Shown here: positions 7,433 to 53,100 of the stretch, one piece after another
Layout: every line of letters begins with the position of its first letter
How positions within the stretch are numbered: position 1 is the first letter of the stretch
Origin: Ectocarpus siliculosus
Lineage: Eukaryota > Sar > Phaeophyceae > Ectocarpales > Ectocarpaceae
Direction: 5' to 3'
Assembly (NCBI GenBank): GCA_000310025.1
Contig: FN649741.1
Location: 978,018-1,042,017, forward strand
Length of the DNA stretch: 64,000 bases
Program-made: the position numbers and the translations under genes
Notes under the pieces: model-generated
Told to the model about the DNA's origin: nothing
The model's input: the letters and a program-made list of their open reading frames with translations, nothing else
Databases searched by the model: none

Positions 7433-9285
7433 TCACGCGCCGGTGTAGTGGTCGTGTGTGAGCTCTGGGTGGTGATTGTCCCCGTGGAGCGTGGCGGCCG
7501 GTTCCTTGACCAGTACGTAGTTTCCAACGGCGGTTTTGGCCCCAGGTGACTCCCGTGTGACTCGGGCGTTGTGGCGTTCCCGATGGCGGTTCTGAGCCTC
7601 GTGCCGGTAGGTGAAGGTTTGCCGAGGCATGCGTTGTTGTTCGGCCACAGTCCGTTCGAGTCCCTTGCCAAAAGAGTTGTCGTCCAGGGCTTGGATGACG
7701 ACGTCGATGTGGGTGCATGGTTCCCGACCGAAGAGGATGCGCAAGGGGGACGCTCCGCCGGGAAGGGACGCGTCGGGCGTAACGCGGTGGATCCAGGTCG
7801 CCACGGGCACGAAATTGTGCCACCCCTTGGGCCACGCGGTGCACAGCTGGGACAGAGCCTCGTGCAGCCACCCCCCCAACCTCTGAATCGCCCCTTGGGC
7901 GCGGGGATGGTTGGCAGGGCCGTAGTTCAGCGGCACTTTCAGCCACCGGCAGAGGTGCTGCATCACCTCCGCAGTGAACTCGCTACCTGGGTCGCAGCGG
8001 ATGATGAGCGGTAGGCCGAAGATGAGTAAGAGACCCAAGAGTTTGCGACTCACCCCAATGACTTCCTTGGACGGGAGCGGGAAGGCCGTGAGGAACTTGG
8101 AAGCCCGGTCGACCGCCGCGAGTAGGTAACGGTTGCCCTTGTCAGAAGTTACCTTGAGGTCCTGGATGTCCATTTCGAGCACCTCCCACGGCCGGAGAAG
8201 CCTCGCCGGCATCTTGAGTAGTTGCGTACTCAGGCACGCTTCTGCCGACGGCACTTGTGGGACAGCGCATAGGCTCGGATGTCCTTATTGTGGGACGGCC
8301 AGTGGTATTTTTGCTCAACTAGGAGGAGGGTGGTGCGTGCCGCTCCAGGGTCGTACGTAGCATGGACCAGCGTCAACACGGCGGGCACCAACTCTTTGGG
8401 GACCGCGATTGTGTACGCACGGCCACGCGGAGCGTGCCACAGCCGGTGGTCGTCGGCCAGGACGTAGTCGTCGTCCTCTACTTGTCCCGTTTCCAGGTCG
8501 GATCGGAGGCGTTGAAATGTTGGGTCTCGTTGCTGAGCCTCCACAAGTCGAGCAGTGTCGCGTAAGGTGTCCTCCAGGTGGAGAGACCTCGTCGTGGCTC
8601 CGGTGTGTCCAGCGGAGTGTTGTCGTCCAAGAGAGTCTCCTGTGGCATCGCTGGTGCCGGGGGTAGCGTCGACGGCTTTGGCGCGGTGGTGCCGGGCCTG
8701 AGGTAGGTGCTGCGGCAGCCTTGGGGTGCTGATCCAAGGGTTCCTCTGCACCTGGCTCCACGGCGTGTGGGACCCATGGTGGTCGGCGTGCAGGCTCCTT
8801 CTCACGGGGGCGGCCGCGGCCGCGGCGTTCGCCAGTTCCCGCCGTCTCCCGGAGTGACGGTGCGGCGGCGGGTGTCGGCGTCGGCCACGCGCTCGGCGGG
8901 CCATACCCCTCATGACCCGAGGGATCACGACGAAGCGCGACTTGTCGACGGTCGCAGCGTCAACGGTGGCGATGTCGTCGGTGGAGCATGTCCATAGGCT
9001 AGCCAGCGCGATGGCCAACTCATCGTCCATGCTGCCCCGTTGGTCGGCGTTCCGGTTGACGATGCCGTGGATGCCCAGTGCGCTGAAGGCTTCCCGTAGC
9101 ATGGGGGGCATGGTGAACTCCTCAAGCGCCCGCGCAGCATCGATCGGTCGCACGCTTGGCGGAACGTCGAAGACCGTCTGGGACGTGGTGAGCTGCACAA
9201 ACTCCTCCTGTGACAGGTCCTGTGCCTCGGCGAAGGGTCCGTCGTCGGCAGGGTGGGACTGGTACTCCGCCGGTCGGCGACCCAT
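7433..9285 (-). pseudogene. Integrase (H2C2 zinc region plus rve core), catalytic Glu replaced
   Basis: The frame at 9285-8230 ends in the zinc-binding region (HATYDPGAARTTLLLVEQKY, then SHKC); the second His of the usual H2C2 set is not present. The frame at 8254-7433 carries the rve core: EMDIQDL, RCDPGSEF and GAIQRLGGWL. The first two acidic residues of the DDE triad are present. The third position, normally Glu in a GxxERxN-type motif, reads Gln. The two frames are offset by a frameshift near 8240. The product would integrate retrotransposon cDNA if intact; the substitutions and shift argue that it is dead. Confidence 0.85.
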
Positions 9286-13358: not shown

Positions 13359-16251
13359 TTAGATATGCAAAGTACTAAAGAAGGAAGACTTTAAGGGGTG
13401 GACCGGAATCACCATCTCACCGTCACGATAGCGAAAGGAGTCTCGGGTAGTCTTCTTCCCTTTTCTTGAAGCCCGCGGTTCGGCCTTGGGTGATGCTTCC
13501 TCGACTCGACTACCCCCTTCTTCGACACCAGCATTTGTTGTTTCTTTCGGCGCGTGATCTGCTGCCCCATTCTCCTTTGCCAACTGATCCTCCTCGTTCG
13601 TTTTAGACTCAAGAATTGTCTTGCGTTCGCGAGGTGCTCCCGGCGTCAGACTCTCGCTACCTATGGTGTTGCCAGCGTCGGTCTCATGCCCGACGGCATT
13701 GGAAACACCGACGGTGATCGTTGTTGCTATGTTGGTTGAAACGCCGCTTGTCTCGGCATCGCCCCTTGGCGCCACACTCACCGTATGGTCTGGCCCGGGA
13801 AGGAGGCCGCCAGCGTCGAGAGTGCTTTCGTTTTCGGTACGTACTTCAGTCTTCTCTCCGAGCTTTTCGACGTTGAGAGCATCGAAGCTTGCTTTGGTGT
13901 CATTCGAAGCCGGGTTGTCTTCGCCGCCGGACACTTGCGCATTCCGACATTCCGCATTCCGGCTTGCTCCCGGAACGATGCCACCGTCTACTTGTCGGTG
14001 TTCCCTCAGCGGCGGTTTTTCAATCTCCTCATTTTGTTTAGCTTCTTCGTGGTGTTTTTCTCCTTGGCGTCCTCCCTCCCTCGTGCAATCTTCATCGTCC
14101 ATGCCATCTTCCAAGACTGCTGCTTCTACTGCTGCTGTTGTTGTCGCTGCTGCCTCTTCTACTGCCCTTGCTCCCTCTTGGTTACCGTCAGCTTCAGCCC
14201 ATTGGTTCTTCTGCTCCTCCACGTTTGTTTGTGGTTCATCTTTGCATCTCGCAGCTTCCGCTCCCACGCTCAACACCTGGGCACGACCCTCCTCCACTTC
14301 TTTATTTTCTGCCGCCCCTTGACCCTCATGGAGTCGCCTCTGCGAATCTTTTTCCGCCTCAAGCGCTCCACCCTTCTTCTTTTTCTTGTGTCTTCTCTTC
14401 TTCTTAGTGGATGCCGTCTCCACAACCTCAACATCCTCGTGGACTGCTTCCGCGTCGTGCTGCTGGCTCTTGATGCGCGGGTCTTGGGGAACCCCGACGA
14501 TCATTTTCCCGAGCCCCGCTTCGTCAAGCTCGTTCTCCTGAAACATCTGTACGAATTCGAAAATCTTCTCCATGTCTGCCTCTCCCATCGCCTGTTCGCC
14601 GGCATCTGCCCCCTCATCACCGTCCTTGCTCTCCACCAACTGCTTGATTTGCGATCCGGTCAGCTCAATCTGGCCCAGCACGTCATTGCTTCCGAACTGA
14701 TCCCAGTCCAAACACACCACTCGCAGAGTGGACTTCTCGACAGAGTTGGGTCCATCTTTGTCGACTTTGAAGGCGAAGATCTCCAAATCCCATACGGGAT
14801 CCAGGGTATCGTTGATGTAGGCGGTTTTGCCGACCAGTTCGTCATTCCAAAACACCTGGTCACCGACAATGTACGTGTGATAGGATCAAGGCTTGGTGTG
14901 ACAGCGAAGAAATGCATCACGAAGGCGAGTCACGTGACGTTTTGCTATCCAAACCTTCTGTAACAGGTTATTACTAATTAGTAGGAGTTAAATACCTATT
15001 TCCGAAGGTCTTACGCAGAAGTAACCCAAGGGTTTGTCCGGTGTCACCGAGTCGTCGAGACCAAGGGGTTCGTGGATATCAGACACTGGGGTGAAATGCC
15101 ACCGAGAATGAACTCTCGGCAGGGTACTTCAAGAAATCTTGACTTCAGCATAGTGAAGTCATCTGATCTGACGCTAATGTTGAATGTTGGGAAAAGTACA
15201 ACAACAGCAGCGAAACACCCTACTTGTACCCCACTAGCCCGAAGCATTTAGTTCCGCCAGTCTGTGCACGATATTCTTGTTTCTTCTCCAATCGTCTCAC
15301 CTCGCAGTATGGGTCACTCAAGCTGAACGGGTCCGCCTTTGGGACATTTTCGGCTTCCATGATGTGGACGTAGAGCTTGCTCCCGAGAAGAGCAACACGA
15401 ATGCCGAGCTGTCCTCGACTCTGTTTTGGTTTCAAATCAAACGAGATGGCCTGATTCTCGTCTGCCTCACCGCTTCGTATTTGCCGCAAGATGGGAAGGA
15501 TTTCGGCATCGCTGAGGGAAATTTGTCCCAGAAAATCATTCTTCGACAGGCGATCCCAGTCATAGAGCTCTATTCGGAGCTTTGGCAAGAGCGCACCGGC
15601 GTTGAAGAGCGCTGAAGAGCCCTCGCCACCGTCCAGCGCTGCCAAAAACTCTGCAGCAAGGGGTAGCACGAACGTTTGATTCGCCCACTTCGGGTTGAGA
15701 GTCATGTGCTTTGTGGTTGTGGCACCGACGAAGTTGTTTTTCCAGTACACGGCGCAGTAGGGGTCACTGGCACCCATGATGTCTGCTGCGGCTATCCCTG
15801 TGCACCCGCGAAGCTGGAGGTGGATGCACGGGCCGGAACAACCACTCTGAAACGTGAGCGGCTGTTTCGCGAGAAACGTGTCCTCTACCGCCACGTCCGA
15901 CTCGTCCGTCGTCAAAATGTAGTCGAGGGTCACCCAGTCGTGCATCTTGGCAAACGTGACACCGTCGCCATCTGCAAGCGTTTGGACGGTGACAGGATCT
16001 CCTTGCACTATCGGGTGCGGCTTATGTCCTTCCTTCCCTTTCCTCTTCGTCAGGTGGTAGTCGAAGAAGCAGGGCTCGCAAAACGGTCGCGGATCACCAG
16101 TGTTTCCGCACTCGTAGCAGAGGAAAAACGCCGGGGTGCTGACTCCCCCCCGCAGGCATTGCTTGCACTGCATCGGAGAGTTGTCCTCATCGAACTCAAG
16201 CTGCTCCTCTAGAGATCGGTACCGCAGAGGATCTATCATGATGACAAACAA
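13359..16251 (-). CDS. Zinc-finger plus tandem C2-domain protein with acidic/basic tail, about 815 aa
   Basis: Two exons, 16251-15301 and 14855-13359, joined GAG|GTGAG to CAG|GTG in phase 0. Residues 29-82 hold a Cys/His-rich finger (CKQCLRG, CYECGNT, CEPCFFDYH) of B-box-like or ZZ-like type. The first C2 domain (about 143-270) contains ASDPYCAVYW and LYDWDRLSKNDFLGQI. The second (about 296-390) is split by the intron exactly inside the SDPYCE|VFWNDELVGKT calcium-loop segment and also keeps DWDQFGSNDVLGQI. Both C2 copies retain Asp residues used for Ca2+ binding. A long tail follows, rich in Glu, Lys and Ala, with a KKKRRHKKKKK basic patch. Ca2+-dependent membrane association is inferred. The gene starts 291 bp from the divergent plastid gene, so they may share a promoter. 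Confidence 0.88.
14856..15300 (-). other. Intron of the C2 gene
   Basis: 445 bp, GTGAG at the donor (15300) and a cag acceptor (14856). Removing it restores a continuous second C2 domain. No transposon is recognised within it. Confidence 0.85.
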
Positions 16252-16542
16252 AACTACGGAAGAATTCCTCGCAACCAGTGATGCCCCAAAGCTCTCCCAT
16301 TGGTATCAAGCTCCCGAGTGACGAATCTCTTGATGCAGCCCCATAAACAGGAGGTGTCTTCACGACCAACAACACGCGGCCTTACCAGCAGCAGACATTG
16401 TCGTATCCTCGTGTGAACAGATCTACGAAATCTACGGTTGGTTGCGAGCGGCGGAATTTCCCGAAACCTGTCCAATCTCGCCGCATTCCTTCGTGTACAA
16501 CGTACAACCCGTGCGTTGTCAACGAACACATGTGTCGGTAAC
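16252..16542. promoter_or_regulatory. Putative bidirectional promoter interval
   Basis: 291 bp between the ATG of the C2 gene (minus) and the ATG of the DUF2993 gene (plus). No TATA box stands out. Assignment rests only on the head-to-head spacing. Confidence 0.4.
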
Positions 16543-19585: not shown

Positions 19586-22500
19586 TCAGCGCTTGGACAC
19601 CGCCGCCGCGCGGCCAAAGAACGACAGCATCGTCGCTCCTTTTCTAGGCGGCTCAGCCTTACCTCCCACCCCTAGCTTCGACTTCTTCCCTCGACCGCTT
19701 CCGCTTCCGCCACGCGAAAGCGGGCGCTTAGGGGCGGCGGGTGTGACCCCGGCGAACTCGGCCGCGGCAGACACGGTCCCGCTTGGGGCCGCCGCCGCCC
19801 GGCGCGCTCCACAATCTTTGTGATCTTCTCCCACCGCGTGCGCAGCGCCTCTAGTTGCGTTATCCTCTCCCCCTTCTTTCTGGGCACAAGCCGTCAGGCA
19901 TCCCTTGCTCAGCCGAGACCACGCGTCTGGATCTCCTCCCCCATACGCCGTGGGACGCAGGGCATCGTCATCACCTCGCAACCGGGTATCGGCAGCCGTA
20001 AGCGCATCGGGTGTGTGGAAACTAGCGGCCATCGCACCTGCTGCGGCCGAACCCCCCGGCTTTCTTGCGAACGGGTTGGGGGCTGCAGTGGGCGTCGAAG
20101 AGCTATCAGCAACCCTTCCGCGGCGCCCAGGCGTTGGTCCGGATCCGCAGGCGAGAACGATCTCCGAAACGTCTTGCAAGCCCGGCGCCGGATATTGCGT
20201 CTTCTGCTGCGAGAACAAGTTTTCCTTCTCCTCTTCCGCCCTCGATCTCGCTCGCTCAAACATGTCCTTGAGCAGTCCGCCACCGCCACTACCACCGCGC
20301 TTGCCTGCCGAAGCCTGGGGTTCGCGGCCCCTCCGATCCCGACCCTGTTTCTGCCCCTGCTGGGTAGACGGACGCGCCCCCCGCGACTCATTTCGCTGGT
20401 TTTTCGACCAACTCGGTGTGGTTGTCGGCAAGGTGGCGCTCCGCGGGCGGTCAGAGGGTGCGATGCTCCGCCGCTGGCCGCTACAGCTGGGACGGGGTTG
20501 ATGCGTTTCGGCACGCCGAACCCCCGCCGCCCCCGAAGCGGGAAACGTTTCGGCTGTGACGGCCTCTCCCGTGACCGGGTCTACGTTGCCGCGAGAGATG
20601 TTCACCATCATCTCGTCCTCGATGGGCTCCCTGGCAAGACGGACCGACACGTGGGNNNNNNNNNNNNNNNNNNNNNNNNNNNNNNNNNNNNNNNNNNNNN
20701 NNNNNNNNNNNNNNNNNNNNNNNNNNNNNNNNNNNNNNNNNNNNNNNNNNNNNNNAAGGATCTCGTCCATCTTGCCTATCTGAGCTTTACTCTTCCCAAT
20801 CAACTTCGCTATGTGTGCGTCCCATGAGCACTCCTTCGAAATCTCTACTCCCAGGTACGTATACTTGTCTACTACCGGTAGTTCTTCCTCCCCCCATTTC
20901 CATTTGAATTCTACGGGATTTTTCTTATCTTCGTTACAGACCACTACTGCGCATTTTCCTACGTTCGCCGACAGTCTCCATTTTCGGGTGTATCCTACCG
21001 CCGCATCTATTTGTTCTTGCAACCCTTCTGGTGTTTCGGATACCCCCACGAAATCATCTGCAAGCATCAGTCCGGACACACTCTTTCCCTCTACTTGGAC
21101 TCCCTGTCTTACTGCTTCAACCGCCCTTATCAAATCGTTGATGTAAATCTTAAAAAGAGTGGGTGACATCGTACAGCCCTGTGCGACTCCTTGGAGTATA
21201 TCCACGTACTTCGAAATTTCCCCATCCAACATCACCGCACTTCTTGTGCATTCTGTCATCTTTTTCAACATCCTCCACATTTTCCCCCGGATGCCGATGT
21301 CCCACATATTTTTCCACAATCCATTGCGCCATACGGTGTCGTAGGCTTTTTGTATATCGAGGAAGAAACAGTATGTCGTACGCCCGGCGTCTTTCCTACC
21401 TTGGATGATTTTACTCAACGTATATACATGGTCTACACAACTACGATCTGGTCTAAATCCAGCTTTGTCCTTCGCTGATCTTTTGTTTCCCCTCCAACAT
21501 GTCTCCCATTCTATTGTCTATCATCTTGCCAAACAGTTTCCCCACTGTGCTCAACAGGGTTATCCCTCTATAATTCCCCGGGTCAGCATTATCCCCCTTT
21601 TTGAACAGGTTCACGACTACTCCTTCTCTCCATCTCTTCGGCGCGTACTCGTGTTTCCATATCCAGTTGAATATCCGGACCAACATGTTAATCATCCCCT
21701 CCCCCCCCTGTTTCAAAAGCTCGTTCACAATTCCATCAGCCCCTGCCGCTTTTCTATTCTTGAGTTTCGCTACGCAGTCCTCTATCTCTTCTCGTGTGAA
21801 CTCTCCCTGCAACCCGTCTACATCACTACGTTCCCTCTGAGATCTTTCAACGTTTTCCTCTGCCCACGAGTTGATTTCCTTCTCAAACTCCGAGTCGAAG
21901 TTGTCGTTGGTGGTGGGTGTCCCAAGTTTGCGGTAGTGCTCTACTAGTACTTCCCTCTTTCCTTTAGAACTGCTTACCATCTTACCCTCGGCAGATCTTA
22001 GTGTCGTTATTTCCGTGTCTCCCCCTCTTTTCTTGCCCACTATCCCTTGAATTCCTACCCACATTTGCTTCATCCCCCCCTCAAAATCTTCGTTAGTCTT
22101 TTGGACTACTTCCTCCCACAGCCCTTTCTTCTTCTTCACGACCAACTCCTTCACCCTCTTTCTACTTTCAACATACTCCTTCCATCCTGCATCTGTTTTT
22201 CCCTGCCGCATATTTTGCGTGTGACTCTCTACGTACTCGAATTGCTTGCTTGATTTCTTCGTCCCACCACTTCACTGCTCTCTTACAAACTATCAACTTT
22301 CTACCTAGAACTCTACTTGCTGTTGTGTTTACCAGCTCTTCCCACCCTTCTATGATTCTAGACCCGGCCTGGTCCCGGCCTTCGGCATCCTTCGGTGTAC
22401 CCATTGCCTCTATCAACTCCGAGAGTTTCTTGTCGTTTATAGCCATCTCTTCTTGGAACTCTACTCTCGTTTCTTCTACTTCTAGCTTATCTATTCTCCA

Positions 22501-25500
22501 TCTGTACATTTTCCTGCGTCGCCTACTCTGTATGACTCTCTTCTGTTGTAGGGCTGTCCACACCAACGCGTGGTCTGTAGTGCCTACACCCGTTGTGCAT
22601 ACTCGTACTTCCGTCTCTTTCCCCCCATTCTCTACGACTATATAGTCAAGGATGGAGCGTTCTCCTTTTTTGAAACATTGCCTAGTCCATTCCGGTTCTG
22701 TCTTTCGTACTCTACCGTTCAACACCTTCATCTCGCTACTGTCAAGGAACCTCAGCATTTCTTCCCCGTTTTTGTTCGTGGCTCCCTCCCCGTATTGCCC
22801 TATGGTTCCGTGTGGGTTCGTGGTTCGCCCGATTCTTGAATTGAAGTCCCCAACTAGAACTACTTATCCCTTTCTCTTGAAGTTTTGTACATCCGCTGCT
22901 ACCTCCTCGAACCCTATCCTGATGTCTTTCACCATATTCTTCGACTCTGGTGGCATATATACGTTTCCTACGAACAAGTCCTTTCTTCCCCGTTCCCCTG
23001 GTACCCTTATCCACATGCTTTCGTTGAATTTGGTGTCGCTGATCACCTCAATTATGTCGCACATGTGCTCCTTGACAAAGAATCCAACTCCCCCCTCCCC
23101 TCTACTCTTGATTTTCTGTCCTCTCCTCATTTTACCTATCCATGTGTAGCTTCCCACTTCTTTTCCTATTTCTCCCCCGTCCTTCTCCCACGACTCTTGG
23201 ACTCCGACTATGTCCAGGTCTTTTTCGGCCGCTTGCTCGGCAATTTCGAGTCTTTTACGCTCATCTGTGGCAAATCCGCATACATTCCAAGACCCTATTC
23301 TGATTTCCTTACTCCTACTTTCTACTTTCCTGTGCCTTTCAGGATTCCTTTTGTCCCTCATTTGCCTTCCCTTCTGCCTTATCCTATCGCTGCCCCCCCC
23401 TTCTCCTACTTTGGCTTGCTTTCCCTTTTGACCCTTTCGGGCCTCCTGCCCTCCTTTGTTTTCAGCCAGCCTTGGGCTACGCCTTACTTCCTGGATCCTA
23501 TTTGCTATGCACACCCTCCAACCTAGTCTCCTCACCCACGCCGACATCTTCTCTACTTCTAGTCTTTCCCATTCTGCGCTTACTCTCCTTCCAAACGTGA
23601 TTCTAAAGTGGTTTCCTTCCCTTTCTACCCCCCCCCTTGCGAAGCAATATAATCCTACTTCTTCACATCTACTTTTGAACTCCAACCTTGTCATGTCGCT
23701 ATTGACCCCAAATATCAACACTACCAGTACTGCACCTTTCCATTCTCTCCTTCTCCACCCTTTGTGCCTCGTCGTCTCCCTCCCTATCTCTTTCGAGACT
23801 ATCTCGTTCTTTGTGTTTGAAGTGGGATGCTTTCAAATTACTGGGACTTCCCAATCCTAGTACTTGTTGAGGGTCTGGTGTCTTTCAATTCTTTTGCCGG
23901 CTCACCGACACTAAAAAGTGCCAACACGGGCTCATAGCCTGGAGCCAAGTTCAACACCCTTAGCACAAGTACCCCAAGTTTGTGCCAGGCGATCTGCATG
24001 GTAACCAATCCAAGCGTCCCACGACCGTTTCTTCTCTCAACTTGCCCCAGCTGCTGTACTGGGTACTTTCCTCCGGGGAGGTCATTTTCCCGATGTAAGG
24101 TTCAAGGGTGGCTTGCATAACAGAAGGTCGGAGGGGGGGGGGGGTACTCATACTCGTAGTCGTGCATGCCGTAGTCGTTAGACCATTGACCTCGCATCCC
24201 TACAAAGCCGGGACGGAGCACGCCGGGTTTTCACCGGACCAGGCTCTCACATCACCAAGCGCGAAGCGCCGTGAGGTATTCGGCGAGTCGCATGAAGGGT
24301 GAGCTGCATCCTGCTAAGGGTGTTCGGCATCTTGTGCTTACTTCCTTGCGTACGGATGACAGCTGCGTATGACTTAATTTATTTTCTGGTGCTTTCACTT
24401 CCAGAGACAGTTATAAGCACCGCGTAACTGCCTCGAGGATGCTTGACCATTTTAACACAACGTGGTGCGATCATCCCCCTTGCGCGGAGTGAGGGTTCTC
24501 GACCCCGCACAACATGATCTACTCGACCACCATTATGGTTACCGCAAAAAAACAAAGGGTAACCTGGTTGCCGAGTTCACGAGGTGAATTGGCTTGTTTA
24601 ACAACGTCGTTGCCAAGAGACGATAACCCAATCCCGATGGCAAACACCGAGGGGGGGGGCTTGTTTTACAACGTCGTTGCCGAGCGACGAAAACCCAACC
24701 CCGATGGCAAACACCGGGGGGAGGCGTGGGGGGGAGGGGGGGGTGATTTTCGACAATGCAAGGTGGATTAGGGTGTCCTGGCGACCGATCGAAAGAAAGG
24801 CGTTCAAAATAATACTGCTGAAGGACGGGAGCGGACGGCCAGAACGACAAAAAACCACAAGAATAACAACGTTTGCTAACAAATGCATCAGCTGCAGGGC
24901 ACGTACCCTAGGAAGGCCGTTCCACCGGCGGTCGATGGAAGGGCGGGGACGTCCGCGGTGCCCATAAGCTCCGGGGCAGCCTCACAAAAGTGCACGCACT
25001 TCTTGGTCCTAGGGTCGTAAACGCGGTGCCAGAAAAAGCTCATCTCGGCGAGATGCATTCGGTCTCGGTGGCCCGTGGGGATCTGTGAGCGACGCGAAAC
25101 CATCGGATTTTGCGGGAGCTTGCAGTGAGGAGGCACACGAAGCAGGTATCGCGCAAGCGTCCGCGACAACGCTGGGCGTAGTCAAACCAGGCATCACATA
25201 ACTCGATGCACATCCCGTGCGGATGCCAGTTTAGTCGTGCTCACACAACCTTGCACCAAAACGCTGGCTCTGGCGAAACCAGGCACCACGAAAATTCATA
25301 TATCCCTCGCAACCCCGAGGTGTTCCGTTCGTACCAGGTGTAACCGTTGGTTCGAGAGTTTTGGCATCTAACCCGTCTCTTCCGGAGTCATCAGATACTT
25401 CGGTGGACGTTCATCATACCCCAGAGAACACATTCGTCCCGCTTGCGTGTCAGCAAACAAGCCCGCCCACAGACGCAGCCGTTGAGGGGGCTCGACGCAG

Positions 25501-31444: not shown

Positions 31445-34231
31445 CTATGAGGCCCCGCTTGTCGCCGGTAGGTCCCAGAACCCGAACTCTGACTCCTTCA
31501 CCCCCCCCGGCTCCGTCGGGAAGTGCTTCTGAAGGTATAGTTCCAACCAAGAGGTTGCCAACAACATGGCGTCTTCAGCGTTCTCCGTGTCCTTCTCCGT
31601 TGGCCGGTGCGCGAAGCCGTGCCCGGCCCCCGGGCAAAGCCTAACCTGGAAATCTGGCACCTGTGATGCACGGGGTGGGCGACGGTGGTAGGGTGTTGGT
31701 AGTGATAGGGGGAAAATGATCTATTAGGAACGCACAAAGTGTGGTGGTTGTCGGGAAGATCGCATATTCCTTCAATTGGACAGACAAACAACGAAACCTC
31801 TGGAGGACGGGATGGCTTGCAATATGGAGGTGTTGTTGTTGTCCTTCACATTGAAAACCGGTCCCCCTATCTCTGCTCAGCACCAACATCCGAGGTGGTC
31901 TAACTGACGTGTACGCCTTTCGCGGTCACAGGCGTGGGACAAGAACGCTGGAAATATTGTAGGCATTTGCCCTCGTATCGACGCATGCACACGCAAGGAA
32001 TCATCCTCCCTTGACTTCCCATCGGCAGTCGCAAACTAAATCCTGACAAAAAAGCCTCGAATGGGATAGTCCACACAGGCCGCGCACCGTTGTTTGCTCT
32101 TCCGAAGTTTGTGTTGCAGCTCGTACTCCAATTTCGGGGGGTTACTCTCGGCGTTCAACTCTGCGATCGGCCGCGCCTGTACTACGCTCGGTTTTCTTTG
32201 AACCAAGGGACACTGAGCTTAGAGCGACGTTTGTATGCATAAGAATGAACAGTAGTCTGGCTGGCGCATTCACTCGCCTTTTCGTTGTCCCGAAGCTGTT
32301 CGCGAAGAGCGCACGCATCTTCAACTGTGGCTCCGGGCAGAACATCGTGTTCGGCGAAGAACGCCGCGACAGGGCACGTCACTCGTGAAGCCACTTCGCT
32401 GACATCATATCTCGTTGGGTAGAAGACGACAACGTTATCCGGCTTGACGACACCTGCATGGGACCAGGCAAGAACAGAATAGGGCAAAAACATTTTAAGA
32501 CGAAAGAGACAACAAAATTTTAAGAGGCCGAACGGGTAGTCTTTCTTTGATTGCATGTATAATTTCCACAAATGATGAGGCCTCACAGCGGACCTGCATC
32601 ACATCAAACCGAAAGCCCGCGCCTCCTTACTCCACAGGTTGGCAGCAGCTTCAGCGCCGCTTGCTACAAGCAGTTGCACACCAGCTGCAAAAGCAGGGGT
32701 GGAAGAAGGGGCACCCCACTGGATATCACCTGCTGCCGCTTCCTCCAGCGCTCTCCCGCCTCCGTAGCAGAAACCCACCAGACCCAACGAGGTGGCCTTA
32801 TATTCTTTTCTCGCGAAGTCAACGCAAGCCCGGATATCATTGGCCACAGCAACCTGTTCGGCAATCGGCGCAGCGCTTGAATTAAATGTTCCGCATAGGC
32901 CAGACCCACCGAATTCAAAGGCTCAGGCTTGTAAATAGTACTTCAGTAGTGATGCTAAAAGCCACGGACTACGGTTCGTGGGTGAGCAGGATGCCTCCCC
33001 GCGCAAACAACGAAAACACGCGTGTACGTGAATGCGTCCATACGATGGTGCTGGCCACAGAGTATGGAGACATGCATCCGGCGATGCTGGGCATCTTCTG
33101 CAACTTCAACATCTGCAAAACTCAACACACACTCTTCCACTGGCCAACAAGCACAACCGGGCACAACAACAAGCCATCCTTTGCTAAGGCACACCGCACC
33201 GGATCGTGCGAAGACCTCCAATCCTCGTACTCCTCTTCCGGCTGCTCGTGGGTCCACGGTCGTCTCCGAAACATGTCCGGAACGACGACAATCGCGTCGC
33301 AAACTTCCGCGATCTCGTCCGCGGCGTTCCTCGTGAAGGAGTCGCCGTAGCCGAAGACATCGGTCAGGAGCACCACCACGTGCGTCTCGGCTCTGTCCGC
33401 GTGCGGGCCGTCCCAGGGACGGAGCGCCTTCTTCGTGCTCACCACGTACGCGTCGCTACGCGGCACGTCGGCCGGCTGGAGGCCCTCCTCCAGCTCGAAG
33501 GTTGTTTCCCGCCGCTCCAAGAGATCCATGATGATCGCTCGTTTTCTCATGTCCTCCGTTGGTTCGGGCAGCAGCAGCGGCGGGGTCGTCGTCGAAGCCC
33601 CGGCGGCGGGGCCGTCACCGGGCTTGGCCCCGTTGTTGGTGTTCGAACGACGAGGCGTTTTGGCAGCGGCCTTCCTAGAAGACGAAGACGATGAAGCGCT
33701 GGTTTGTCCCGTTTCAGTGCCTCGGGTCTTGCGACTCGCCGCCTGGTCTTTGGGAGGCAACCGCGCAGGGACCACGTCCGCGAGCTCGGCATCCCTGATC
33801 AGCTCCTTAGCGGCGGCCGCAGATCCGAGACGGGAAGAGGAGAACGTTCTTGCTGCTGGGATGCCCCCCAGCACCTCCTCCGCCGTCACCGCCACCGGCC
33901 TTGTTGGCCTTCGCTTCGTCTTCCTTTTCGTCTTTGGTTGTGGTGGCGGCAGGACGGTGTCTTCCTCCATCCACCGGGCGACTTCCTCGTCGGAAAGCAC
34001 GTCTTCGGGTGGTGGTGGTGGTGGTGGTGGTGGTGGTGGCGGCGTGAGAACGCCCGGTTCGGCAGCCAGAAGACGGACGAGGTCCGCCTTTCTCCCGGAG
34101 TGCTTCAGTCCACGCACCTTGAGCTCTTGCTTGAGCTTGACGACGGTCAGCGCTGAGAGAGGTAGATACATAGACAGCAGAGGTGGTGCATCGACCTTAG
34201 AACCAGCAGGAACATGGGGGAAACAGACCAA
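31445..34231 (-). CDS. SAP domain fused to dienelactone-hydrolase-like domain, about 555 aa
   Basis: Exons 34231-33200, 32853-32610, 32453-32278 and 31660-31445 are phase-consistent. Near the N-terminus LPLSALTVVKLKQELKVRGL and KHSGRKADLVRLLAA form a SAP DNA/RNA-binding motif, followed by a 12-Pro run and a basic linker. From about residue 290 the alpha/beta-hydrolase appears: VVVLLTDVFGYGDSFTRN, then GLVGFCYGGG with the nucleophilic Cys, then CPVAAFFAEHDVLPG with the Asp, then CPGAGHGFAHR with the His, a complete Cys-Asp-His triad. The last intron either has a GC donor (AAG|GCGAGT) or shifts to GCGA|GTGAAT with acceptor at 31653. The true start could be the second Met (34171) or lie in an earlier exon. 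Substrate unknown; SAP suggests a nuclear location. Confidence 0.82.
31827..31950. mobile_element. Partial copy of the cttcacatt-ended MITE
   Basis: tgttgttgttgtccttcacattgaaaaccggt and the later cgcggtcacaggcg segment follow the left half of the 4932-5243 element. No right end is found nearby. It lies in the last intron of the SAP-hydrolase gene. Confidence 0.72.
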
Positions 34232-35114
34232 CAGCTAAGCAGGAACCTCCGGTGTTCGCTGTGACCCCACGGGTGGGGTCGGTAAAGGGGAGGGCGGCAA
34301 AGTTCGTGACTACAAGCTACTGCCGTATCAGTGCGACACCGGCTCTATTTGCGTTACCGTGGACACCTCGATCGGATTGCAAGAGAAGAAGCACCTAACT
34401 CGGATCGATGGCAATTGGATTGGCGGGCACCCCACCTGATAAGCAGCGGCTTACCTTCCAGATCTTCGACGCTCTTGAAAAGAGGAGGCTCTCCCGTATC
34501 ATCGCTACGCTCGCGGACTGCGCTCCTAGCAGTTGCTGTTCGCCGATTGGCGTCGATTATCCGAACGGGGCGCCTCCTGAAGCTCGACGGGCAGAAGGCA
34601 TTGGTACCTGCGAACCAAGACCGTGTGAATCATTTTTAGTCTGCCGTCCCTATGTCATTTCGAGCTTGATCGATGTCAGCATAAAACCACGCACACAAGG
34701 GCGGTTACCACTGAAGTTCAAGGGAGGTTCGTGTCTCTCGTTTGCGGATCATGTGGGCCGTACGACGCAAGCGTTGGGGAAAAATGTCATCTCGCACCTA
34801 GCTGTACTCCTGACAGAATTGCACCACAGAGAATAATCAGCTCCAGTCTATGCCGTCTTGGTCGGCAGCAGTGCTGCATCGGTGTGCGTGGTGCCTCGAC
34901 TCTCAAGAGTTGGTCAGTGAAGACGATGTCGTGGCCAGGACACGGCGCAGTCAATGTCAGGGGGCTCCGTGTATGGTCCCTGCAACCCCCCGTCCTTCTT
35001 TGGAAACGGAGATTGAGGAGATCGAGATTTGTAGACGAGTGATGTTGTGCCGCTCTCTCTCCTGGTCGCCCAGCACTCTCCTCTCTCCTCTGCTGTGTCT
35101 CTCTGCCGCTCATC
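34232..35114. other. Divergent intergenic region
   Basis: Lies between the SAP-hydrolase gene (minus) and the six-repeat zinc protein (plus). Contains short frames with no family match; an additional 5' exon of the SAP gene could be here. No repeat recognised. Confidence 0.55.
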
Positions 35115-37843
35115 ATGTCTCGATTGCACAACCTCCTTCGAAAGAAAAAGAAACCGGACAAGTGCGGCTTCTGCCACGCTGTTATCGCGAAAGACGAGAC
35201 CCACTCCGGCGTATTCTACACAGTACCTGAGGAGGAGGGCGGCACAATTCACCAGGTTACAGGTTACATAAAGCTGTAGTTCGCGAAGACCCACAGATTT
35301 GTACTGTTTGATCTGCTGTAGTTGGTCATGCCCCCCGGGCTTACGGTACCTTCGTCCGGCGCTACTACCGCTACTGCTTTGGTTGATTTGATCAATAGAC
35401 TGCTGTTCGGTGCAGAGCTCTTATTTCTCATAAAGTGTACAGCAGTTCTTCGCCAGCGTCGCCGCAAAAGAGTCTACTGTACAGCCTAACCGTAAGATAG
35501 CGACCAGACTCGTTCACAACGGACATTTTCACTACGACCAGCCGTAGCTGCCTCACTCTCCCTCTCTCCCTCTCTCCCTCTCTCCCTGTCTGTTATGGTC
35601 CCCGCCATGCGTCGACTGGAGGCAGCACGTGATTTTCTTCGTTGACCAAGTGTGATACTCCTCGTCTGCCGCAACACATGTCTCTCTCGAACTCATCGCA
35701 GGAGTGTTGGGAGAAATACCACGAGAAATGTTCCGTCAAGTGTCTACACTGCGAAGGGCCCGTGGCGCATCTTCCCGGGCGCTTCAACGGCAAGTTCTAC
35801 CCTAGCACTGATCCTCCGGGGAAGATTCACAGGTGATGTGTGTCATGTCAAACACCCCAAAACACTTTGGTACCAAGCCCCGTTTCTACTGTAGTACCCG
35901 ATAAGAAGGTGCCAGCATTGAACAGTCGGTTTTGGTGACATGGATGCCGGGGTAACCCTGGTCTTACATCGTGTCGCTTTGGCAAAACGTATACAGGCCT
36001 TTACCCATGTTTTTGCCGGCATCCTGAGTACTTGTACCCAGAAGACAGCTTAATAGTCGCGCGTGTTCTCACGCGCGACTCTTAGTACTCACGGGACCAA
36101 GCAACGGCTCGGCTCTCAGTTCAGCGCTGATGTTCGCACTGGCTGCTCGAAAGTATCCCCCCACCGCACCACGACACATCTACTCCAGACAAGTTTTGGG
36201 CCACCAGCCACCCTTTTGAAGTCAGATTTCAGAGTACCCGGTAGGATGAAAGCGGGAGTCCGACGTAATGGTTATTCCCACTGCGGCCAATTTACTAGCC
36301 TTGCAATAACTACGACTAATGGTTGATTATTTACAACACACCAACAATATGTACCAAATATTGCGGCGTTTTGAAGCAAAATAGCAGCCGAGAGCGAGAA
36401 ACCCACCGCGGTTTACTTGCTGGAAAAGCGTAATGTTTAACAAGTGAACCTTGCTCAACTCCCAAACGAGCGGTTTTTTTCTTTTTTGTCCTACAGCGAG
36501 TGCTGGGAGGCCTACAAGGGCTCGAAACCAGCAGCGGAAAAGTGCGGAGAGTGCGGCGAGCCGCTGTCCTTCGTGGAGGGCAAGTTTAGCGGCAGCTACG
36601 TTACGCTTGGGGATGGAATAAAAGTGCACGGTGCGTTTGTAATGTCTTCCTTTCTTCCTTTCTTCACGGCGGGGATACGAGGTGTTCTCACGCCTGGCAC
36701 GGAACTGCTGTCTGTCGTGCTAGGCCATCACCTACCACGGTGTTAGCGGTGTTCTCGTAGTGGGTACATACCACGCTTTGCACGAGGGCAACGTTTGCAC
36801 TGTTGTCATACGTTGCTCTTTCCTGGCGACGACCGCGCAGGCCTTCGCCTTGCTCGTTCTCGACATCCCTGATCATCGCAAAACGCGTGTGTTTCTAACC
36901 TCGCCCTTGTTTCATTTTCCCTTTTGTTTTCGTATGTAGTCGAGTGCCGGTCGGCGTACCACCAGAAACACACGGAAAAATGCCTGCAGTGTAACGAGCC
37001 GGTGGCACCCGAGGCGGGTAAATTTTGCGGAGAGTTCTTCGAGGTGGAAGGCAAGGGGAGAGTCCACTCCGAGTGCATGGACGCGTACGAGGAAACCACT
37101 GCAGATAGGTGCCTGGTCTGCAAGAAGGCGGTGCGACGAATGGAAGGCTTCAGCGGGGACTTCATGATGATCGACGGTGGCAAAGTGCACAAGGTATATA
37201 GGCGGCGTGGAACGCAGCTCAAGAAGCTTTCATACCGTTAAAAGTGTTGACCATAATTTTTCGAGTTCGGTTTGTCGCAGAACCCCGTTTCCTACAGTAT
37301 TAGTGTTGGTGAAGATTGTAAATTTTCATTTCTCACCGCCCGGGCCACTAGCCTGCATATGTAGCATGTTTTGGCGTTACCCTTGGTTCAAGACTCTGGG
37401 CTAGAATGTTTTTTTAGACGGGCCGACAGCCGAGAAAACTCGAAATGGATGTCGGTGGGTATGGCACATTCGGCAGCAGGTTACCGTTACCATTTTTCGC
37501 GGAGTCGCAGCGACAGGGTGCAAACAAACGCGCCTGCTTACATGGCGGCTGTTGTAGCGAGCAGACAGGTACCCATGTGCATCGACCTCGGCTCTCTCCC
37601 ATCCATGTCACCTCTCTCTGGAATGCCCTTCAGGAGTGCGCGTCGGAGTACCAAGAGATGGTGGCGGACAAGTGCTTGCATTGCCAAAAGGGGGTACGGA
37701 AGGCTGGCGAGTTCAGCGGTTCTTTCTACCCCGTCGATCGCAAGCTGGGGGACGCCGAAGGGGAGGACAACGAATCAAAAGTGCACATGGAATGCTTTGA
37801 GGCTTACCAGGCGCAGCTAGCCGAAAAGGGCAAAGGAAGCTAA
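35115..37843 (+). CDS. Six-repeat CxxC...HxEC zinc-knuckle (half-LIM-like) protein, 289 aa
   Basis: Exons 35115-35255, 35702-35832, 36497-36630, 36940-37193 and 37634-37843, all GT-AG, total 870 nt. After a basic start (MSRLHNLLRKKKKPD) the protein is almost entirely six repeats of about 42-55 residues: CxxC at the front (CGFC, CLHC, CGEC, CLQC, CLVC, CLHC), a GxFxGxF-type centre, and a HxEC end (IHQEC, IHSEC, VHVEC, VHSEC, VHKEC, VHMEC) followed by xxxYxxxxxxKC. Four ligands per repeat fit one zinc ion, like a single LIM half-domain. Introns fall in the codon between the His and the Glu of the repeat, so most exons equal one repeat. It has no enzyme domain; a protein-binding scaffold role is inferred. 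The exact family is not recognised. Confidence 0.85.
35548..35590. repeat. (CTCTCTCC)n low-complexity tract in intron 1
   Basis: About four to five ctctctcc units in the first intron of the six-repeat zinc protein gene. Confidence 0.8.
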
Positions 37844-50100: not shown

Positions 50101-53100
50101 GCGCATGCATTGCTCGAAAGAAGCATGGAGAGTGCGTTCGCTGCCACTGACCGAGGGGAAGGGGCCCCGCGGATACGTAAACGTCGCCACCTACCGTGCT
50201 GGGACACGTGCCGTGGCCCCGCCTTGTTTTAACCGGGAGTAAAGGGTCGCATAACCGGCCCGACACGTGTGTCTCCCACGCCTACTGTAACTTGGTCTTA
50301 TTCTTGCCGTTGCCGATGTTTCCGACTCTGCGGACTTGCTTTGCCTCGCCTCGGCCGCGCTTCTTCAATGTTCCTACCCCCCCCCCCCCAACCCCCCCCC
50401 CCTCTCCCCCCCCCCCCTACTTCGGGCCCCGGCGTCCACCCCCACCCCGGCCGTCTTCCGCCGCCTCCTCCTGGGCCCCCCCTCCCCCGGGGGCGTTGCG
50501 GAGGGGGTCTTCTTCCCGGGCGAGTTCTTCGCCCCGGGGCCCGGCTCGGGGCNNNNNNNNNNNNNNNNNNNNNNNNNNNNNNNNNNNNNNNNNNNNNNNN
50601 NNNNNNNNNNNNNNNNNNNNNNNNNNNNNNNNNNNNNNNNNNNNNNNNNNNNCCCCCCCCCCCCCCCCCCCCCCCCCCCGCAAATTAGCTCGAGGCGTTG
50701 TTTGTGGTCCTGGTGTCGATCATGACGGTGGCCTTCTTCATCGACTTCTTCATGAGCCCGCCGTCGCCGGCGGACGTTGCGGAGGGGTTCTCCTTCACGG
50801 CGGAGTCGTACGCGACGGTGCCGGCACTGGGGCTGATCGGGGCCGTCATCATGCCCCACAACATCTACCTGCACTCCGCCCTGGTGCTCTCGCGCGTGGT
50901 GGACAGGACGAGACCCAGGAAGCTGTGGGAGGTGGGCTGGATGGACCCCATGTTGACGGGTTTCGTAGCCGCTGCTGCTGTTGTGCGGCGGAGTTCGGAT
51001 AGGTCCATGTTGACGGTTTCGTCACGTCTGCTGTTGTACGGCGGAGGGGGGGATGGGGTGCACTCATGTAAGCGCATGCCGTAGTTGTGGGAATCATTGT
51101 CCTCGCATCCCTACAGTGCCGGGACGGAGCGAGTTTTCGTCGGCAGGGGCTGCGTTTCTCGAGGATTGACCAGGGAGGATCATTATATGGTTGTGTCTCG
51201 CGTGCTGGGTGGCGAAATGGTGTGGAGGAACGTTGTGTTTCAACTCCCCCGAAGCGATAATTCGGTTTTTGTTTGTTCGTTTCTAGAAATTGGGTAGTTT
51301 GCTTGTGACCACAGAAGGCGTCCGCGTGAGTTGGACCAGTACGGACATTAGAAGGTACTGAGCGGAGAACGGAACGGTTTTTTACATGTGAAGACAATAG
51401 GACAACATTATACGAGTCTGATCTCGCCCCCGTTCCCTCCCGCGGTCCCGCCCCTTCCGTCCCCTGCCTTTTCGTGGCGCCAAACACTCGCCTCTTGGGT
51501 GTTGGGCGACGACAATAGGCGACTAAGTACTACACCATCGACAGCGGGATCGCGCTGATGGTGGCGTTCATGATCAACCTTGCCGTGGTCTGCACGTTCG
51601 CCAAGCAGTTCTACGACGAGACGTGCGCCACCGCGTCTGAGCCGTCGGCCTGCTTCGTCGGGGACTCGATCGACCCCACGCAGCCGTCTTACGGCAGCTG
51701 CGACGCGGACGGCACGGGGCTTTGCCAAGAGATAGGGCTCTCGGCGGCGGCGGCCGCGCTGAGGGGAACGCTAGGGTCATCGGCGAAGTACGTGTGGGCC
51801 GTTGGTTTGCTGGTGAGGAGAGCAGCGATCGGCCGTGTTTGGATGGGTTTCTGTGGCCAGGGAGTGGACGCGTCGTTTTGTTTGTTTTTCCTACTAAATA
51901 AACAGTACCCGGTGTTGTTGGTACAGTTATCTTCAACGGTGGTTACTACAACGGTCATGTTTTTTTTGTGTGTTGTTCCCATGTGGTACGTGTTTGCATT
52001 TCTCGTTTTCTTCTAGCCTTGGTGAAAGGGTACCTTGAGGTTATTGTCTGTAACGATGCCGTTCTGTGATTTGCAAAAGCTGAGCTCAGCCGAGTGAATC
52101 CTGACACAAGAAGACATTTTTTTTTTTTTTTATGTTTCGGCCTCAATATTACAGGCGGCGGGCCAAAGCAGCACCATGACGGGGACGTACGCGGGGCAAT
52201 TCGTCATGGAGGGCTTCCTTCAGCTTAAGATTCCCAAGTGGCAAAGAGTTCTCGTGACGCGAATTATCGCTCTAGGCCCCGCCCTGGCGGTGACGGTGTT
52301 CATGGGCGGGGACATCCGGGCGACAGACCGCTTGAGCGCGTGGCTCAACGTGCTGCAGAGCTTGCAGCTACCGTTCGCCATCATCCCGCTCCTGACGTTC
52401 TGCAACAGGTGAGGAGGTGTCTGTCGCTGTGCTTTGCGGTGGTGGCGGCGGCGGCGGCGGTGTGTTGTAGGCTTGGGCGTCGACCAGTCAGGGGTTTGCT
52501 GCACCTTCCTTTTGGGTTGGCGGTGGCGGCATGGGGTCGTGCAGGTTGCTGATGTCGTGGTGTTGCCAAGAACGGGGTGTGACGCGTAGCCGGCGCCTCC
52601 TCTTGCGTACACCCTTTCCTACTACTAAAGACCCCGAAGAGTACCGCGATGCCATAGAGCGGGGTCGGGCAGAAGAGGCCTATAGGAGCTTTGCGATTGA
52701 AATGGTAGAGTGCAGCAAATCAAGGTTCGAGTGCCTCTTCGTGTGGTAAGATGGTTCACGGGGCTCGTGGGCAAAAGGCGTCGCCTCGATAAGCACCAAC
52801 ATGCAGAATTCGGCGTGTTTTGTCCCCTGAACAGCGTTGGATCGTTGGCTCTCGTGTAAGCGCACTCTATATGCCACGCCTTCGCATGACCGCAGGCAGT
52901 GCTGTACCTCCCTCACCCATCCCTGCTCGCTTTGCTCGCTCGCTCGCTCGCCCTTCTCCTCCCCCCCAAAGCCCGCACGTCATGGGCGAGTTCACTATCA
53001 CCAGTTCCATGACGGCCTTCGTGTGGATGGTGTCGATCGGCATTATCGGGATCAACATCTCCATCGTCTTGGGCTTCCTCTTCGACGAGGGCATCTCTTC

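Follow-up and report, generated by a model that had tools for sequence, protein, structure and literature searches.

How can introns that occupy one and the same codon of a tandem repeat come to differ in phase? The question is raised by a predicted gene of the brown alga Ectocarpus siliculosus, which lies on the plus strand of the 64,000-nt stretch of contig FN649741.1 that we analysed as a whole (hereafter the window, whose coordinates are used throughout). The gene would encode six copies of a cysteine-rich unit, four of which are interrupted by an intron between the same two invariant residues.

A predicted gene of five exons

When five predicted exons are joined by reading frame and motif, they give a coding sequence of 870 nt and a protein of 289 amino acids with a mass of ~32-kDa. 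Nearly the whole of this protein is made up of six CxxC...HxEC units, as an earlier note on this DNA had claimed. Exon 1 (35115..35255) carries the start codon, a basic N-terminus (the first 16 amino acids have a net charge of +6) and repeat 1 as far as H-Q, and ends in phase 0. It is followed by intron 1 (35256..35701, 446 nt), which begins 3 nt past the His codon of repeat 1 and is in phase 0. Exon 2 (35702..35832, 131 nt) contains the Glu-Cys end of repeat 1 and then repeat 2 up to its His codon plus 2 nt, where intron 2 (35833..36496, 664 nt) interrupts the frame in phase 2. The remainder of repeat 2 and repeat 3 as far as the His codon plus 1 nt are encoded by exon 3 (36497..36630, 134 nt), and intron 3 (36631..36939, 309 nt) follows in phase 1. 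Exon 4 (36940..37193, 254 nt) comprises the end of repeat 3, all of repeat 4, whose HSEC is not interrupted by an intron, and repeat 5 to H-K. Intron 4 (37194..37633, 440 nt) is again in phase 0, 3 nt past the His codon of repeat 5. Finally, exon 5 (37634..37843, 210 nt) holds the end of repeat 5, repeat 6 with an uninterrupted HMEC, and the stop codon TAA. All of these features are on the plus strand, and all four introns are of the GT-AG type.

The introns thus fall at offsets of +3, +2, +1 and +3 nt past the His codon, which agrees with the earlier reading of four introns within the single codon between His and Glu in phases 0, 2, 1 and 0. In the gene model predicted from the letters, this combination of six units, a shared intron site and three phases is confirmed. 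The description of the gene as having one repeat per exon holds approximately. Exons 2 and 3 each consist of the tail of one repeat and the head of the next, but five exons hold six repeats, and exon 4 adds a whole one.

Upstream, at ~0.9 kb from the gene start, a divergent open frame with a SAP domain occupies 33125-34234 on the minus strand. The minus strand of the window also carries two C2-domain open frames (13362-14885 and 15223-16305), a LINE-like element with reverse transcriptase and endonuclease/exonuclease/phosphatase frames (19589-21517 and 22867-23832), and an integrase core domain frame that is probably part of a retroelement (7436-8284). On the plus strand, two frames (50689-51081 and 51519-52013) match consecutive segments of an Nramp-type metal transporter.

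Six homologous repeats

The six units conform to C-X2-C-Xn-H-X2-C, with n equal to 25, 25, 24, 24, 22 and 33 in repeats 1-6, and are separated by 11, 13, 11, 11 and 11 residues when counted from the last Cys of one to the first Cys of the next. All 24 putative ligand residues are present, and they account for 18 of the 20 cysteines of the protein. Although the repeats share only 30-51% pairwise identity, all six have C, C, G, H, E, C and Y at the corresponding positions, the Tyr being four residues past the last Cys in every unit. By contrast, the position x of HxEC is occupied by Q, S, V, S, K and M in the six repeats, which amounts to five different residues and 2.25 bits beside columns of zero entropy.

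In a leave-one-out test, a profile lacking one module was run against the six-frame translation of the window. Modules 1-6 were all recovered when left out (1.4e-3, 7.5e-12, 1.2e-8, 4.2e-11, 1.2e-10 and 6.6e-12, respectively), and the best off-gene stretch of each run reached 0.38, 0.96, 0.14, 0.29, 1.0 and 0.75. Even the weakest recovery, that of module 1, stands at 1.4e-3 versus 0.38 for the top off-gene stretch. Given that each left-out module was found, we conclude that the repeats are real and homologous.

A low-confidence structure model (mean pLDDT 63.8, pTM 0.44) places strands at residues 32-35 and 39-42 and a helix at residues 43-53; His 42 and Cys 45 lie where this helix begins. This model suggests a treble-clef layout, in which a knuckle and a hairpin are followed by a helix that carries the last ligands. 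The protein is probably composed of six single-zinc modules of the treble-clef type, both the zinc binding and the fold being predictions. By likeness to LIM-type arrays, its most likely function would be that of a zinc-stabilised, multi-module binding scaffold.

Relationship to known families

The earlier note had put no name to the family, and this doubt proved justified, as none of the families searched claims the protein. No Pfam or NCBIfam model scores above its cut-off, and no clear relative of the protein was found in the PDB. Seven families were listed for the protein in the Pfam search at E<=10, and neither the LIM family (PF00412) nor the EsV-1-7 repeat (PF19114) is among them.

A LIM domain consists of two zinc modules with a two-residue spacer between them, and its first module has the spacing C-X2-C-X16-23-H-X2-C. 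In the present gene, only repeat 5 falls within this range, the other five of the six repeats being longer. Moreover, a second C-X2-C does not follow two residues past the last ligand, the spacer here being 11-13 residues. The label 'half-LIM' that the earlier note had proposed is thus apt for the ligand pattern, but membership of the LIM family fails on both the spacers and the Pfam search. Placement in an ordinary LIM family with a fixed intron phase had been named as one outcome that would overturn the original reading, and the lack of any PF00412 match at E<=10 speaks against it.

The protein also has some likeness to DUF2175 (PF09943), a family that Pfam describes as archaeal and for which a literature search returned no paper. 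A weak match (E 0.26) spans the CxxC-to-HxEC part of repeat 5 (residues 192-225), but the score of 12 bits lies below the cut-off (25.1). The best single-repeat match to this family has an E value of 0.032, and an artificial two-repeat consensus gives 24.6 bits, which is also below the cut-off of 25.1. For the Double zinc ribbon (PF12773) the protein scores 20.6 bits versus a cut-off of 27.3. NinF was the one Pfam model to pass its cut-off with the artificial consensus (28 versus 27.5 bits), and its strongest stretch spanned 11 residues that surround CxxC; it was rejected, as this query is artificial and the Pfam list of the real protein does not include NinF. EsV-1-7 repeats are expanded in brown algae, and they are abundant in this genome, where 880 candidates were found and 150 scored, each of the matches listed being over the cut-off. 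We read this abundance as a mark of a brown-algal genome.

Search for relatives

Paralogues were sought throughout the 189 Mb of the genome (492 contigs) at E<=10. The protein query matched five places, all of which are exons of the gene itself. A two-repeat consensus matched four places, again all own exons; it missed exon 1 of the gene, and would likewise overlook any module that has diverged as far as repeat 1. At the DNA level, a pattern that encodes E-C-W-[ED]-x-[YF], with a few other residues admitted in the last place, occurs at 12 places versus 5 for a reversed control. Two of the 12 belong to this gene, and the other 10 loci lack the module (best value 0.58). PF00412 gave eight weak places across the genome, none over the cut-off, and PF09943 gave one place (E 0.13) with a lone CxxC-X18-HxxC motif.

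We then scanned 13 loci with the module profile, namely the eight PF00412 places, the PF09943 place, two viral loci and two matches of intron 1. The best value was 0.025, for a partial match in one locus (L011) that lacks the HxEC part. At locus L016 (G000:C22:2040506), a CxxC...HMGC stretch from position 1500 onward is followed ~0.8 kb further on by LSDGRMLCMAC. We take this locus to resemble a DA1-type LIM-like protein.

Outside the genome, IMG/VR viral contigs gave 6 and 44 pattern stretches and GTDB genomes gave 14, and no relative was confirmed among them or among phages and plasmids. Two further matches in viral contigs were discarded because their frames are interrupted by stops. These searches cover this genome and the viral, prokaryote, phage and plasmid collections, and say little about absence outside this genome.

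Intron positions and phases

To what extent do the three phases depend on how the splice sites were chosen? At each boundary, every GT or GC donor and every AG acceptor up to 45 nt away was tried. For introns 1-4, this gave 15, 6, 14 and 15 pairs that keep the frame open, of which exactly one per intron preserves both the frame and all six units. The phases are consequently independent of the choice among nearby sites. Alternative GT/GC-AG choices that would yield one common phase were ruled out within the same distance, since the set of six units is lost. The introns 1 and 4 both end in a tandem acceptor, CAG/GAG (35699-35704 and 37631-37636). Splicing at the second AG of this acceptor would remove the invariant Glu, which would leave H-X-C in place of H-X2-C.

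Four randomly placed introns coincided in a single codon column of the repeat in 11 of 2,000,000 trials. Copying of an exon between introns requires that the introns share a single phase, and phases of 0, 2, 1 and 0 therefore exclude duplication as the sole cause. On this point the earlier note was correct. The single phase of an exon-duplicated array is not found here, and a combination of duplication with sliding is still compatible with the data. The three internal exons all have lengths of the form 3n+2, such that skipping any one or two of them breaks the frame, which is restored only when all three are skipped together. Among the titles and abstracts listed in literature searches, we recognised no other tandem array whose introns occupy a single homologous codon in all three phases; this is a weak negative.

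The introns show nothing beyond short, chance-like matches to each other, and their common origin is accordingly not provable from their sequences. In DNA searches with whole introns, no full-length copy was found elsewhere in the genome. Introns 2-4 match only themselves, and intron 1 has two extra matches of 42 bases at 90% identity that cover its CTCTCCCT repeat. Because this search leaves out simple repeats and words that are very common, the rarity of the intron sequences is not demonstrable from it. Mobile introns are not supported by these matches, which occur only at the introns' own places apart from the CTCTCCCT repeat.

Origin of the phase pattern

The explanation that we consider somewhat likelier to be right than wrong is duplication of an exon that holds a shifted repeat, and subsequent sliding of the introns by 1-2 bases within the free codon of HxEC. 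The duplicated unit would have comprised the Glu-Cys helix of one module together with the knuckle and hairpin of the next, up to its His. The array would have grown by duplication of this exon under a single shared intron phase, and the introns would have moved by one or two bases only after the duplications. At least two slides would be needed, all of them inside codon x. Such slides could be tolerated because codon x is free while the His, Glu and Cys that flank it are fixed. The same constraint would confine the movement to this codon, as any bigger shift would strike a ligand or the Glu. Duplication before sliding is the likeliest order of events.

In favour of sliding is the observation that four of the four introns lie in the same codon column. 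A tentative alternative, and one that we regard as rather unlikely, is parallel gain, in which four introns entered an intronless tandem-repeat gene independently of one another, each at a preferred target around HxE. When x is Q or K, the H-x-E codons form a perfect MAG/G proto-splice site, and introns 1 and 4 occupy exactly such sites; the uninterrupted HxEC of repeats 4 and 6 would also suit such a gain. However, MAG/G is absent at introns 2 and 3, and 12 of the 14 MAG/G sites in the coding sequence are unused. Whole introns moreover match only their own places in the genome, apart from the two short matches of intron 1. With only two of four introns at MAG/G, most such sites empty, and neither resembling introns nor full-length copies, the evidence favours sliding over repeated insertion at a preferred position, and neither is proved. 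Dissimilar introns without full-length copies fit what is expected of old introns and not of recent insertions.

Less probable still, and in our estimation distinctly improbable, is a mixed history in which two or three introns descend from duplication of a phase-0 exon and the rest are either gains or introns whose two ends were altered by paired indels. Introns 1 and 4 have both phase 0 and MAG/G in common, as such a history would predict. Codon x also contributes the first 1 base of exon 3 and the first 2 bases of exon 4, with the end of the preceding exon balancing each. However, this history calls for more kinds of event and, without relatives, is indistinguishable from plain sliding.

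Splice scores bear on the gene model itself. With matrices trained on 146 candidate leucine-rich repeat (LRR) exons from this genome, introns 1-4 have donors that rank 11, 5, 2 and 23 among the 185 GT dinucleotides in the gene span, and acceptors that rank 4, 1, 9 and 7 among 172 AG. Donors 1 and 4 (4.19 and 1.59) fall short of the training set's tenth percentile (5.28), as do acceptors 3 and 4 (0.95 and 1.61, versus 4.56). These low scores are what a misread gene model or a pseudogene, with true splicing elsewhere and an unreal phase pattern, would lead one to expect, but we judge that reading very improbable given that all five exons are open with every putative ligand in place, that other frame-keeping pairs within 45 nt all give fewer than six units, and that third codon positions of the coding sequence have a G+C of 0.72 versus 0.49-0.53 in the introns.

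Possible consequences of the proposed duplication and sliding

It is possible, at somewhat less than an even chance, that this one gene records at least two phase-changing slides of 1-2 bases in a single neutral codon, which left behind a phase-locked array. In such an array, no single internal exon and no pair of them could be skipped, copied or lost in frame. Array length could hardly change by exon copying, and the number of repeats would be nearly frozen against change at the level of exons, unlike in the LRR arrays of this genome, whose exons keep to one phase. Sliding could have survived here simply because the codon concerned is free and its neighbours are fixed. With introns in all three phases at one homologous codon, the question of sliding becomes testable inside a single gene.

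Comparison with reported sliding and with LRR exon arrays

Intron sliding, above all in phase-changing steps, is disputed in the parts of the literature available to us (PMC7730772, PMC2891723). The accessible text of a survey of mammals regards it as very rare, if it exists at all, and states as background that proposed slides are nearly always of 1 bp (PMC7730772). In the corresponding text of a Drosophila study, 9 of 31 cases were judged likely to be sliding, with shifts of 3-15 nt that are all multiples of three (PMC2891723). A shift by a multiple of three, which keeps the phase, was one of that study's own criteria (PMC2891723). The process proposed here resembles the Drosophila cases, as that text presents them, in the short relocation of both splice sites, but differs in that the phases change, the shifts are of 1-2 nt, and the comparison is made between repeats and not between species (PMC2891723).

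LRR exon arrays of the same genome served as a control. In nine arrays that were hand-picked from a listing and are not a random sample, an exon of the form AG-72 nt-GT is present in 144 of 158 LRR cores. Of 162 candidate 72-nt LRR exons, 148 are flanked on both sides by phase 1, 13 by phase 0 and one by phase 2, in line with the single phase that exon copying requires; these are candidates and not proven exons, and selection for 72 nt forces equal phases before and after, which leaves only the value of the shared phase as informative. In the nine stretches concerned (L073-L081), candidate exons occur on both strands within the same few kilobases, being found in all 18 strand-by-stretch sets, and the strands alternate along the array listing. 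The COR-A domain has only one match in the genome (L029, G000:C17:274385-274576), versus many LRR exon arrays. Most of the arrays may belong to genes other than ROCO, unless the COR-A domain is concealed by introns.

Brown-algal ROCO genes are described, in the text available, as having 72-bp LRR exons of a single phase (PMC11378527). That paper names the exons phase 2, with nucleotides 3 to 71 forming whole codons, which corresponds to phase 1 as counted here (PMC11378527). The present gene shares with these arrays, which also occur in this genome, a tandem layout of approximately one repeat per exon in a brown alga (PMC11378527). The ROCO and LRR arrays keep one phase, in the text of that paper (PMC11378527) and in 148 of the 162 candidates here, and can have exons skipped or copied in frame, whereas the three internal exons of the present gene are all of length 3n+2.
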